From Rhodopseudomonas sp. (lineage in GTDB: Bacteria; Pseudomonadota; Alphaproteobacteria; Rhizobiales; Xanthobacteraceae), in assembly GCF_013377015.1 (NCBI RefSeq), contig NZ_JACABA010000001.1, positions 269,554-333,553 of the forward strand: a stretch of 64,000 bases of DNA, written 5' to 3'. The position numbers were made by a program, and so were the translations under genes. This document shows positions 52,228-56,728 of this stretch, piece after piece (the first letter of the stretch is position 1; each line of letters starts with the position of its first letter). The notes under the pieces are model-generated. The model saw only the letters and a program-made list of their open reading frames with translations, was not told where the DNA came from and did not search any database.

Positions 52228-53214
52228 TCAGACGATCAATCGCGCATACAGGTCGGCATCGACATTGCCGCCCGACAGCACGATGACAACGGTCTTGCCG
52301 CGCGCATCGAGCCGGCCCGACAGCAAAGCGGCGAGCGCCACCGCGCCGCCGGGCTCCGCCACTAGCTTCAATTCCCGGAACAAGAAGGCAACCGCCTGCG
52401 CGATTTCGGCGTCGGATGCGGTGACGCCGCGGGCCAACAGCCGCCGGTTGATGGCAAAGGTCAGTTCGCCCGGGATCGATGCCATCAGCGCATCGCAGAT
52501 AGTACGGCCCTCGGCGCTATGCGGTTCGCGATGACCCGCCGCCAGCGAGCGGGCGTGATCGTCGAAGGCATCAGGCTCGGCCGAGATGATCGAGGCCTGT
52601 GGAAAACGCGCTTTGACCGCCACCGCGATCCCGGCGATCAGCCCGCCGCCGGAAACCGGCGCAACGACGATATCGGGGGCGAGACCAAGCCCGGCGAGAT
52701 CCTCGGCGATCTCGCGACCGACCGTGCCCTGCCCTGCAATGACCCAGGGATCGTCATAGGGCGGCACCAGCGTGGCCCCGCGCGCCGCAGCGATCTCGCG
52801 GGCGATCGCCTCGCGATCCTCGCGGTCGCGGTCGTACAGCACCACCTCGGCGCCGTAGCCCCTGGTCCGTTCGCGTTTCGACAGCGGCGCATCCGCCGGC
52901 ATCACGATGGTCGCGCGCATGTCGAGGATCTGCGCCGCCGCGGCCACACCTTGCGCGTGATTGCCAGACGAGAACGCCACCACACCGCCGCCGCGCGCAG
53001 CTTTCGGAATCGACGACATCTTGTTGAAAGCACCGCGAAACTTGAACGAACCGGTCCGCTGCAGCATTTCCGGCTTCAGCAGCACCCGGGCGCCGGTCAC
53101 CGCGTCGAGCGCCGGGCAACTCAGCAGCGGGGTCCGCACCGCATAAGGCACCAGCACACCGGCCGCGATGTCGATATCCGCGGCGGTGACTGGCAAATCA
53201 TCCGAATCTGTCAT
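52228..53214 (-). CDS. threonine/serine dehydratase-like PLP enzyme
   Basis: 328 residues from ATG 53214; the track extends 72 codons too far. Fold type II PLP enzyme: Schiff-base Lys58 in RTGSFKFRGAFNKM, substrate loop FSSGNHAQGVAAAA, phosphate loop APVSGGGLIAGIA and a C-terminal ILSGGNVD. There is no ACT regulatory domain, so it is the short catabolic or serine-racemase-like form. It deaminates Thr or Ser to 2-oxoacids, or handles a hydroxy-amino acid such as hydroxyectoine products. No neighbour narrows this. Confidence 0.85.
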   Translation of the reverse strand: MTDSDDLPVTAADIDIAAGVLVPYAVRTPLLSCPALDAVTGARVLLKPEMLQRTGSFKFRGAFNKMSSIPKAARGGGVVAFSSGNHAQGVAAAAQILDMRATIVMPADAPLSKRERTRGYGAEVVLYDRDREDREAIAREIAAARGATLVPPYDDPWVIAGQGTVGREIAEDLAGLGLAPDIVVAPVSGGGLIAGIAVAVKARFPQASIISAEPDAFDDHARSLAAGHREPHSAEGRTICDALMASIPGELTFAINRRLLARGVTASDAEIAQAVAFLFRELKLVAEPGGAVALAALLSGRLDARGKTVVIVLSGGNVDADLYARLIV

Positions 53215-53258: not shown

Positions 53259-54317
53259 TCAGGCGACGAACCGAGCCTGTTTCGGCGCCGCGCGGGCCGA
53301 ATCGCGGTCCGGATCCATCATCCAGACCCGCGTGACATTTTCGATGAAGGCGCGGGCCGACGCCGCCCAGGTTTGCGATGCCGCGAATTCGAGGCAGGCT
53401 TGCGGCGAAATCTTCAGCGCCGACAGGCACGCCTGCTGCAGGTCGTCGCTAAGCACACCAACCGGCGCATCGCCGATCACGTCGCGGGGGCCGGTTACCG
53501 GGAACGCCGCGACCGGCACGCCGCTGCCCAGCGCCTCTAGCAGCACCAATCCGAAGGTGTCGGTCTTGCTCGGAAACACGAACACGTCGGCCGCGGCATA
53601 GGCCTGCCCCAGCGCTTCGCCCTGGCGGGCGCCGAGAAATACCGCATCCGGATAGGCCAGCTGCAGCCCGGCGCGGGCCGGGCCATCGCCGACCACGACC
53701 TTGGTCCCCGGCAGATCGAGCGCCAGAAAGGCTTCGAGATTCTTTTCGACAGCGACCCGCCCGACCGACAGAAACACCGGACGCGGCAAGCCAAAATCGG
53801 CGCCCTCACGCGGATGGAACAGGCCGGCATCGACACCGCGCGGCCACAGCACCACATTGCGAAAGCCCCGGCTGCGCAATTCCTCGGCCAGTGCCGGCGT
53901 CGCCGCCATCACCGCCTGGCTTCGGCCGTGGAAGCGGCGCAGCCAGGCCCAGACCCAGGATTCCGGGATCGGCAGCCGCGCCGAGATATATTCCGGAAAC
54001 CGGGTGTGAAAACTGGTGGTGAAGCGCAGTCCCCGCTTGCGGCAGTAACTGCGCACGGCGATTCCGATCGGCCCCTCGGTGGCAATGTGGATGCAGTCGG
54101 CCTGCGCTTCGGCGATCAGCCGAGCGATCTTCGCCGGGCGCGGGATCGCAACGCGCAGGTCCGGATAGCTCGGCAGCCCGACGGTCGGAAACGATTGCGG
54201 GGTAATGAAGCTGACATCGGCGCCAAGCGTCTTGGCGGCGTCGGCCATCATGGTCAGCGTCCGTACGACGCCGTTGACCTGCGGATGCCAGGCATCTGTG
54301 GCGACTAGAATACGCAT
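53259..54317 (-). CDS. GT4 glycosyltransferase, Agt/SqdX-like (diacylglycerol glycosyltransferase candidate)
   Basis: 352 residues, GT-B fold family 4. The N-terminus RILVATDAWHPQVNGVVRTLTMMA is the hallmark of lipid glycosyltransferases such as SqdX, MgtA/PimB-like and Agrobacterium Agt. The donor-binding end reads LSVGRVAVEKNLEAFLAL and FVFPSKTDTFGLVLLEALGSGVPVAAFP with the conserved Glu. It starts on the last base of the upstream phosphoesterase stop (TGATG), so the two are coupled. PlcP-Agt pairs in other alphaproteobacteria turn phospholipid into glycolipid during phosphate shortage; I infer that role here. Confidence 0.8.
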   Translation of the reverse strand: MRILVATDAWHPQVNGVVRTLTMMADAAKTLGADVSFITPQSFPTVGLPSYPDLRVAIPRPAKIARLIAEAQADCIHIATEGPIGIAVRSYCRKRGLRFTTSFHTRFPEYISARLPIPESWVWAWLRRFHGRSQAVMAATPALAEELRSRGFRNVVLWPRGVDAGLFHPREGADFGLPRPVFLSVGRVAVEKNLEAFLALDLPGTKVVVGDGPARAGLQLAYPDAVFLGARQGEALGQAYAAADVFVFPSKTDTFGLVLLEALGSGVPVAAFPVTGPRDVIGDAPVGVLSDDLQQACLSALKISPQACLEFAASQTWAASARAFIENVTRVWMMDPDRDSARAAPKQARFVA

Positions 54318-55114
54318 CAGGCGGCGCGCGCCGCGACCGAGGCCACCGGCAGGTTATGCTTGACCGGGTCGGTCCAGGTGATGATCTCGAACCGGCCGTC
54401 CTCGTGCTCGGCCAGCGCCGTGCAGCTCTCGACCCAGTCGCCGCAATTCATGTAGCGGATGCCGTGATCGTCGCGGATCGCGGCGGTGTGGATGTGGCCG
54501 CAGATCACGCCGTCGGTACCGTGGCGGCGCGCCTCCTGCGCCAGCGTCTGCTCGAACGCGCCAATGTAGTTCACCGCGTTCTTGACCTTCAGCTTCGCCC
54601 ATTGCGACAGCGACCAGTACGGCACGCCGAACCAACGCCGGAACGCGTTGACCAGACGATTCATCCGGATCGCGAAATCGTAGGCCTTGTCGCCGACATG
54701 GGCGAGCCAGCGCGCGTTCTGCACCACGAGGTCGAACATGTCGCCGTGGATCACCAGGTAGCGGCGACCGTCGACGCCGACATGGATCGCATTCTCGACG
54801 ACGTCGATGCCGCCGAAATGGGTGCCATAATAGGAGCGCAAGAATTCGTCGTGGTTGCCCGGGATGTAGAGAATGCGGGCGCCCTTACGGCCCTTGCGCA
54901 GCAGCTTCTGCACGAAGTCATTGTGCGACTGCGGCCAGTACCAACTCGATTTCAGCGCCCAGCCGTCAATGATGTCGCCGACAAGATAGATGGTGTCGGC
55001 GTCGTGAACGCGGAGGAAGTCCAGCAGCCGTGTGGTCTGCGAACCGCGCGCGCCGAGGTGTACGTCGGAGATGAACAGGGTGCGAAAGCGTCGTTCCGGA
55101 TTCTCGTCACTCAT
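54317..55114 (-). CDS. metallophosphoesterase, PlcP-like phospholipase C (LpxH-related)
   Basis: 265 residues, calcineurin-like fold with all metal ligands: FISDVHLG (Asp17, His19), VGDIIDGW (Asp47), IPGNHDEF (Asn87, His88), VIHGDMFD and CGHIHTA. Often annotated UDP-2,3-diacylglucosamine diphosphatase. The SWYWPQSHNDFVQKLLRKGRKG segment and coupling to an Agt-like glycosyltransferase favour PlcP of Sinorhizobium, which cuts phosphatidylcholine to diacylglycerol and phosphocholine when phosphate is scarce. A Pho-box-like motif lies just upstream. Start 55114; ATG 55129 is an alternative. Confidence 0.8.
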   Translation of the reverse strand: MSDENPERRFRTLFISDVHLGARGSQTTRLLDFLRVHDADTIYLVGDIIDGWALKSSWYWPQSHNDFVQKLLRKGRKGARILYIPGNHDEFLRSYYGTHFGGIDVVENAIHVGVDGRRYLVIHGDMFDLVVQNARWLAHVGDKAYDFAIRMNRLVNAFRRWFGVPYWSLSQWAKLKVKNAVNYIGAFEQTLAQEARRHGTDGVICGHIHTAAIRDDHGIRYMNCGDWVESCTALAEHEDGRFEIITWTDPVKHNLPVASVAARAA

Positions 55115-55152
55115 GACGTGACTTCCCATGCGCGCGCTGCTGGCAGCGCTGG

Positions 55153-55170
55153 ATGACAGCTTGATGGCGT
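55153..55170 (-). promoter_or_regulatory. Pho-box-like motif before the PlcP-like gene
   Basis: On the minus strand ACGCCAT-N4-CTGTCAT: the second 7-mer is a perfect Pho half-site and the first matches 4 of 7. It lies immediately after the pmtA stop and 39 bp before the phosphoesterase ATG. Confidence 0.45.
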
Positions 55171-55830
55171 TCAGGCCGCGAGCGGCTCGAACGTCCTCTC
55201 GAAACAAACCAGGGTGTAGATGCCGAACGGCGCGATCTTGCGCCGCTCGACCAGAATTGCGTTCTTGTTGGCGTGAGCCCAGGCCTGCAGCCGGGCGAAG
55301 GGAAATTCCGGACGCAGACCCATGCCCCTGGTGCGCTGCGCGGCCCATCGCTCGACCGCCGCAGCAACGCCAACCTCGGAATACAGATGGTTGACCAGAA
55401 TGATGCGACCGCCCGGCTTGACCACGCGATGGCACTCGGACAGCACCAGCTCGGGATTGGCGACCAGAGTGATGACAAATTGCGCGACCACGCAGTCGAA
55501 GGTCGCGTCGTCGAATTCCATCTGGTGGGCGTCCATCACCCGGACGTCCTTGACCCAAGGATAGCGTCCGCTCGCCATCTTGGCGCGGGCCTTGTCCAGC
55601 ATCGGGCCGCTGAGGTCGATCCCGGTAATTTCGGTCGTGGCATCGTAATCGTCGAACGATAGTCCAGTACCGACGCCGACCTCGAGGATCTTACCGCCGA
55701 GCGAACGCGCCTCGGCGGCCGCGGCGCGACGCCCCTTGACCATCACAGGACCACAAACAGCGTCGTAGATCGGCGCCCATCGGGCATAGGCCGTTTGCAC
55801 TGCAGATTTATCGAGGTCAGGAGTCATCAT
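55171..55830 (-). CDS. pmtA: phosphatidylethanolamine N-methyltransferase PmtA
   Basis: 219 residues. It starts near ATG 55830; a GTG at 55842 is possible. SAM-dependent class I methyltransferase: AYARWAPIYDAVCGPVMVKGRRAA (typical PmtA N-terminus), motif I ILEVGVGTGLSFDDYD, then GIDLSGPMLDKARAKM, FDCVVAQFVITLVANPELVLSECHRVVKPGGRIILVNH. It methylates phosphatidylethanolamine three times to phosphatidylcholine on the inner membrane. It lies 56 bp upstream of the PlcP-like gene in the same direction, so synthesis and breakdown of the same lipid may be in one transcription unit. Confidence 0.88.
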   Translation of the reverse strand: MMTPDLDKSAVQTAYARWAPIYDAVCGPVMVKGRRAAAAEARSLGGKILEVGVGTGLSFDDYDATTEITGIDLSGPMLDKARAKMASGRYPWVKDVRVMDAHQMEFDDATFDCVVAQFVITLVANPELVLSECHRVVKPGGRIILVNHLYSEVGVAAAVERWAAQRTRGMGLRPEFPFARLQAWAHANKNAILVERRKIAPFGIYTLVCFERTFEPLAA

Positions 55831-55927
55831 CGGAGCCGTCACCAGAGAATCACAAAATCATCGTGAATCCCGGATAGCAGTCGAGTGCGACGGCACCACG
55901 ACAGCGGACCCGACCGGCCGTGGAGCT

Positions 55928-56728
55928 TTAGTCGAAAGCAAAAAAGTGGTGGATAGGGCCGTGGCCGTGGCCGACATCGAGCCGGTCGGCGGCGGCGATC
56001 GCTGCGCTGACCCAGTCCTTGGCGCGGCCTACCGCGGTTTCCAGATCCTGCCCCTTGGCGAGCCCCGCGGCGATCGCCGCGGACAGCGAGCATCCGGTGC
56101 CGTGGGTGTTCCTGGTGGCAATTCGCGGAGCCTGCAGTGCCAGAATATCGGTCCCGCTGAACAGGTAGTCGGTGCTCATCGGCCCATGTCCGTGGCCGCC
56201 CTTGATCAGCACCGCGCCGCAACCCAGCGCCAGTAGCCGCCGGCCCTGGTTCTCGATGGCGGCCGCGTCGCCGGCCACCGCTTCATCCAGCAAGGCAGCC
56301 GCCTCCGGCAAGTTCGGCGTGATGATCCCGGCGCGGGGAATGAGGCCACGGCGCAGCGCCTCGACGCAGTCAGCCGCCAGCAGCCGATCGCCTGAGGTGG
56401 CCACCATAACCGGATCGAGCACGACATTTTCGGGCGACCAGCGGTCGAGCCCGGCAACGATCGCCTCGATGACGGGGCGCTGCGACACCATTCCGATCTT
56501 GACCGCCTTGACGGCGAGATCGCTGAACACCGCGTCGATCTGGGCGGTCACGAATTCCGCCGGCACCTGATGGATTGCGCTGACGCCTTGGGTATTCTGC
56601 GCGGTCAGCGCGGTGATCACCGACGCGCCATAGACGCCGTTGGCGGCGAAGCTCTTGAGGTCGGCCTGAATGCCGGCGCCGCCGCTCGAGTCAGAGCCGG
56701 CGATAGTGAGGGCGATCGGAATCGTCAT
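55928..56728 (-). CDS. thiD: hydroxymethylpyrimidine/phosphomethylpyrimidine kinase ThiD
   Basis: 266 residues, complete. Ribokinase fold: start ALTIAGSDSSGGAGIQADLKSFAANGVYG, anion-hole motif RNTHGTGCSLSAAIAAGLAKG near the C-terminus, and VVLDPVMVATSGD. It phosphorylates HMP and HMP-P in thiamine biosynthesis. No other thi genes are in the window and no TPP riboswitch (THI box) was recognised in the gap before it. Confidence 0.95.
   Translation of the reverse strand: MTIPIALTIAGSDSSGGAGIQADLKSFAANGVYGASVITALTAQNTQGVSAIHQVPAEFVTAQIDAVFSDLAVKAVKIGMVSQRPVIEAIVAGLDRWSPENVVLDPVMVATSGDRLLAADCVEALRRGLIPRAGIITPNLPEAAALLDEAVAGDAAAIENQGRRLLALGCGAVLIKGGHGHGPMSTDYLFSGTDILALQAPRIATRNTHGTGCSLSAAIAAGLAKGQDLETAVGRAKDWVSAAIAAADRLDVGHGHGPIHHFFAFD

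Follow-up and report, generated by a model that had tools for sequence, protein, structure and literature searches.

The genes pmtA, plcP and agt on the minus strand of a stretch of 64,000 nucleotides from Rhodopseudomonas sp. (the window; the source genome has 4.83 Mb in 34 contigs) probably form a membrane-remodelling module for phosphate starvation that has its own, dedicated phospholipid N-methyltransferase. The lipid swap itself is known, but an enzyme predicted to make phosphatidylcholine (PC) that is linked to it through its gene position and through promoter signals of the phosphate type seems to be undescribed: in the open-access literature that was searched, neither linkage to plcP nor Pho control is described for a pmt gene. 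Three minus-strand open reading frames were confirmed where the original prediction had placed them, and its naming of the products as PmtA, a PlcP-like phosphoesterase and an Agt-like glycosyltransferase was upheld by the analyses described here.

Table 1. Genes and sequence elements of the pmtA-plcP-agt locus (positions within the window).
Feature	Position	Strand	Remarks
pmtA-like gene	55171..55830	(-)	219 aa, ATG at 55830; Rhodobacter-type phospholipid N-methyltransferase, plcP-linked Pmt clade; PmtA structure match and tree
plcP-like gene	54317..55114	(-)	265 aa; intracellular phospholipase C, calcineurin-like superfamily; invariant ligands and tree split from LpxH
agt-like gene	53259..54317	(-)	352 aa; GT4 diacylglycerol glycosyltransferase; motifs GRVAVEKN, FPSKTDTFG, H104, D253, R187, K192, E261
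TGATG stop-start overlap, plcP to agt	54315..54319	(-)	sequence; identical overlap in close relatives
Pho-box-like direct repeat CTGTCGTGGTGCCGTCGC	55887..55904	(-)	74 bp upstream of pmtA; conserved in relatives
Weaker Pho-box-like repeat ACGCCATCAAGCTGTCAT	55153..55170	(-)	at -56 of plcP; 11/14 strict, p=0.005
Serine/threonine dehydratase-like gene	52228..53214	(-)	44 bp downstream of agt
thiD (HMP-P kinase)	55928..56728	(-)	97 bp upstream of pmtA, co-directional; above cut-off, 329 vs 205 bits

Identity of the three gene products

The methyltransferase carries the motifs YxRWAPIYD and ILEVGVGTG, the latter of the SAM type VL(E/D)xGxGxG, and is a UbiE-like SAM methyltransferase. For METHYLTRANSFERASE of the locus, the best solved relative is 8ys9 (PmtA, a methyltransferase of phosphatidylethanolamine (PE) and MMPE; E=1e-35). 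This homology supports its assignment as a Rhodobacter-type phospholipid N-methyltransferase that is predicted to convert PE to MMPE, DMPE and PC. In the tree, the protein falls into a clade of 45 rows (support 100/99), 40 of which adjoin plcP. The genome encodes a second, 46% identical Pmt at another site; in the tree, its closest company is the unlinked Pmt of a Bradyrhizobium-like genus (g24). Identity as BtaB was ruled out: the genome has a separate btaAB pair, with btaA at G000:C31:233359-234468 (L190) and an adjoining, divergent BtaB-like methyltransferase, and btaA is absent from many genomes with a plcP-linked Pmt. Since BtaA, the divergent BtaB-like protein and a Pho-box-like repeat between their genes are present, the cell may also produce a betaine lipid.

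The clade of the window Pmt is distinct from the remaining Pmts, and its score of 115 bits lies far below the cut-off of 390 bits of the NCBIfam PmtA equivalog NF045882, which is named for Legionella enzymes, so that the missed cut-off excludes that equivalog only. Both would fit an enzyme that makes no PC and acts in parallel to PlcP and Agt by N-methylating some different lipid of the starved membrane, such as an ornithine lipid or a new aminolipid; an ornithine-lipid N-methyltransferase, OlsG, is known elsewhere. However, the nearest solved relative acts on PE and MMPE, other Rhodobacter-type members make PC (PMC3972451) and a BtaB role is excluded, which makes this reading quite unlikely.

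The second product is calcineurin-like, and the active-site residues D17, H19, D47, GNHD (86-89), H123 and GHxH (206-209) are invariant. The original prediction had proposed a phylogeny of this phosphoesterase against PlcP and LpxH and had named grouping with LpxH as the result that would speak against it; no such grouping was found. A tree was built from 38 proteins of the PlcP type and 13 LpxH proteins; its PlcP side consists of homologues neighbouring agt and not of biochemically characterised PlcP. A 100/100 branch separates the two types. GNHD is present in every one of the 38 PlcP-type proteins, the window protein included, and GNRD in each of the 13 LpxH proteins. The nearest named organisms to the window PlcP are represented by Rhodopseudomonas and Bradyrhizobium proteins. 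LpxH, a UDP-2,3-diacylglucosamine diphosphatase, shares the metallophosphoesterase superfamily and the metal ligands with the window protein and provides both its best solved-structure match and its top NCBIfam name, but both matches are weak. If the protein were such a lipid A enzyme, the trio would have no connection to phosphate saving; this is almost certainly not the case, as the tree and the motif contradict it, the LpxH cut-offs are missed (TIGR01854, 54 vs 190 bits; PRK05340, 57 vs 134 bits) and the genome encodes LpxI, which supplies the lipid A step. LpxI is adjoined by lpxA, and their presence in one stretch makes LpxH dispensable in this genome. LpxH identity was thereby ruled out, and assignment to the PlcP type is supported, with release of diacylglycerol from PC and PE as the predicted activity. 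PlcP orthologues are found in 129/149 genomes of the family and 235/297 of the order.

The third product, a GT4 enzyme, keeps the sugar-binding motifs GRVAxEKN and FPSxTDTFG, the His-Asp dyad and all mutationally tested residues of Pelagibacter GTcp, among them those at which mutations inactivate the enzyme (PMC8231724). This supports its identity as Agt, for which synthesis of glucosyl- or glucuronosyl-diacylglycerol is predicted. The match to characterised PlcP and Agt is based on motifs, synteny and published statements; the predicted activities are those of orthologues (PMC3972451, PMC9239053, PMC8528852).

Gene order and linkage of pmtA to plcP-agt

In the window, agt is located directly 3' of plcP, and the plcP stop and the agt start have one base in common (TGATG), which fits the predicted translational coupling. 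The two genes are adjacent in most Hyphomicrobiales genomes; the agt orthologue follows plcP immediately in the majority of the families sampled and in numerous named genera. Among the named genera scanned, which included Mesorhizobium, Rhizobium, Bradyrhizobium and Shinella, agt is unlinked from plcP in Mesorhizobium, Rhizobium and Shinella; this agrees with A. tumefaciens, where atu1649 and atu2297 lie apart (PMC3972451). Deletion of plcP-agt in Methylosinus leads to loss of glucuronosyl-diacylglycerol (PMC9239053). The plcP-agt pair is thus already known, is found nearly order-wide and, as had been stated beforehand, belongs to phosphate-saving remodelling.

Variations of the pair were also seen. 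A paralogous agt, with Thr in place of the catalytic His104, accounts for 6 of 148 agt matches (L053, L061, L063, L064, L128, L199), and each of the six copies immediately precedes the gene of a Pmt from another clade (Bradyrhizobium-like, Methylobacterium-like and a Hyphomicrobiales MAG). The product of this agt2-pmt pair may be a different lipid, and it is a guess that the Bradyrhizobium copy of the agt2-linked Pmt is PmtX2. Some Nitrobacteraceae have, besides the main pair, a second, divergent plcP-agt pair with a PlcP of 57-63% identity in a clade of its own (L062, L093, L102, L193, L194, L195). Finally, some genomes of genus g19 (L197, L037) have plcP without a directly adjoining agt or pmtA.

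In the window, pmtA lies upstream of the plcP-agt pair, separated from plcP by 56 bp. To count linkage in the family, Pmt proteins with at least 62% identity to the window Pmt were paired with plcP by coordinates and by eye. Pmt adjoins plcP in 48 of the 50 family genomes that have it; in the other two, the match is truncated or comes from a poor assembly. The linked gene is directly upstream of plcP and co-directional in 39 genomes, directly downstream in eight (in those inspected, agt is not adjacent) and last in the order plcP-agt-pmtA in one. In family f20, pmt is divergent from plcP-agt in all 12 genomes having it, and one genome of family f42 has the same arrangement. Pmt is unlinked to plcP in families f45, f35 and f29 and in one genome of the window's family. 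The order pmtA-plcP-agt is found in 24 of the 30 closest PlcP loci, and because of this and the 48 linked family genomes the arrangement is not due to chance. The culturable Rhodopseudomonas faecalis (L135) is one of the relatives that have this operon arrangement. The association is even stronger than originally predicted, and inheritance of gene order by itself hardly accounts for its persistence through four arrangements.

The flanking thiD and dehydratase-like genes are co-directional with the trio, so the unit is possibly longer than three genes. The dehydratase-like gene, which in several relatives (L184, L185, L196) likewise follows pmtA or agt, is a possible fourth member of the predicted transcription unit with an unlikely role in lipid metabolism; thiD is probably outside the module. 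The pmtA-plcP intergenic region was folded for eight genomes, and in most of them the hairpin was no more stable than in shuffled sequences; therefore, we do not claim an attenuator.

Pho-box-like repeats upstream of pmtA and plcP

Two forms of a Pho-box-like repeat were scored over 14 positions: the strict consensus of two 7-mers near CTGTCAT with a spacing of 4 nt, and the degenerate form YTGTCRY-N4-YTGTCRY. CTGTCGTGGTGCCGTCGC upstream of pmtA matches the degenerate form at 13/14 positions (p=0.005 on its own) and the strict one at 10/14 (p=0.08). An alignment of the regions upstream of pmtA revealed a single block of conservation, TGTCG-N6-TGTCR, at a distance of about 59-89 bp from the gene. 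Matches to the strict consensus reach 13/14 in relatives, giving a combined p of 5e-7 that ignores relatedness. The degenerate form is matched at 13-14/14 by promoter-proximal, linked pmtA genes in 12 of 13 groups; its GTCR element was derived from these same promoters before scoring, for which the included promoters of f20 and f42 are an independent check. Unlinked Pmt genes score 8-11/14 in 24 of 24 cases, none reaching 13/14 or more, and the five clade members that are unlinked to plcP all have no box.

The repeat upstream of plcP is matched at 12-14/14 in several relatives at the same offset (-55/-56), with 14/14 in L022, and persists in Bradyrhizobium, which has no linked pmtA; no clear plcP box was found where pmtA is downstream of plcP. 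Its combined p is about 5e-11, uncorrected for relatedness, and the p-values of both repeats are inflated by related genomes. As a control, the btaA-btaB intergenic region of the same genome scores 12/14 in the strict form. An exact genome-wide scan for the GTCR form of the repeat yielded five matches versus four for the reversed pattern, thus no enrichment; this form is therefore unspecific alone and was used comparatively only. Beyond the predicted gene adjacency, these promoter repeats also support a link between pmtA and plcP-agt.

It could be argued that an ordinary plcP-agt pair has merely acquired a housekeeping pmtA as a chance neighbour, with no special role in phosphate starvation. 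Indeed, plcP-agt is common without a nearby pmt in Bradyrhizobium and many other genera, and pmtA of A. tumefaciens is constitutive (PMC3972451). Nevertheless, we regard this as unlikely: the linkage is retained across at least four orders or orientations, the genome has a separate Pmt paralogue and the repeat is restricted to linked, promoter-proximal pmtA genes.

A model of the module and its relation to known systems

From the observed homology, coupling, linkage and motifs we infer the activities of the three enzymes, control of the module by PhoB and a flow of lipid from Pmt to PlcP. When phosphate becomes scarce, PhoB would switch on pmtA via its own box, and plcP-agt would be expressed from the pmtA transcript as well as from the internal box. 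PmtA, judging from its family, would methylate PE to MMPE, DMPE and PC. PlcP would then, like its orthologues, cleave PC and the less methylated forms to diacylglycerol and the phosphorylated headgroup, which would free phosphate for the cell, and Agt, whose translation would be coupled to that of PlcP, would add glucose and/or glucuronic acid to diacylglycerol, again as expected from orthologues.

Phosphate-starved bacteria are thought to halt phospholipid synthesis and to begin degradation, and synthesis of PC while PC is degraded looks futile, which is a counterpoint to the module. The most likely use of an extra Pmt, and the one we favour, would be to shift PE into the lipid pool of PlcP; alternatively, it could maintain a bilayer-forming zwitterionic lipid as phospholipids drop. 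Elaborating on the favoured use, it is tempting to speculate, as a tentative idea, that a starvation-specific Pmt clade turns PE into PC, or into PE with fewer methyl groups than PC, and thereby opens the largest phospholipid pool to PlcP. PE would be channelled via PC and diacylglycerol to glycolipid in one Pho-controlled module, and synthesis and breakdown of PC would be co-induced by design. A PC-type synthase that apparently shares phosphate control with PlcP suggests that headgroup methylation is a remodelling step and not membrane building alone. This is also a candidate reason for the several Pmt paralogues in some Hyphomicrobiales; in B. japonicum, some of these are silent in standard medium (PMC3972451). 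The question is accessible to single-gene deletions in culturable, non-pathogenic species such as Rhodopseudomonas.

The window Pmt has in common with the Rhodobacter-type Pmts (R. sphaeroides PmtA, B. japonicum PmtX1 and PmtX2, 8ys9) the UbiE-like fold family, the SAM motif, the YxRWAPIYD N-terminus and a length of about 219 aa. It differs from them in its separate, plcP-linked clade and the Pho-like repeats upstream, and the second Pmt of the genome is of the unlinked type. Both plcP-btaAB and plcP-agt are established arrangements (PMC4796936). In the plcP-btaAB operon (type 1, Phaeobacter MED193; PMC4796936), PlcP also stands beside a lipid methyltransferase for phosphate starvation; there, however, it is BtaB with a betaine lipid as product, whereas the neighbour in the window is a Pmt, and BtaA and the BtaB-like protein are encoded elsewhere. 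No pmt gene is named in the published accounts of plcP neighbourhoods that were compared. With the known plcP-agt operons (PMC4796936, type 2; Methylosinus trichosporium, PMC9239053; Pseudomonas aeruginosa, PMC8528852) the locus shares the position of plcP immediately before agt, genes that overlap or lie close together, a Pho-box-like site upstream and conserved active sites, but it differs from them in the phospholipid N-methyltransferase gene upstream, which has a Pho-like box of its own.
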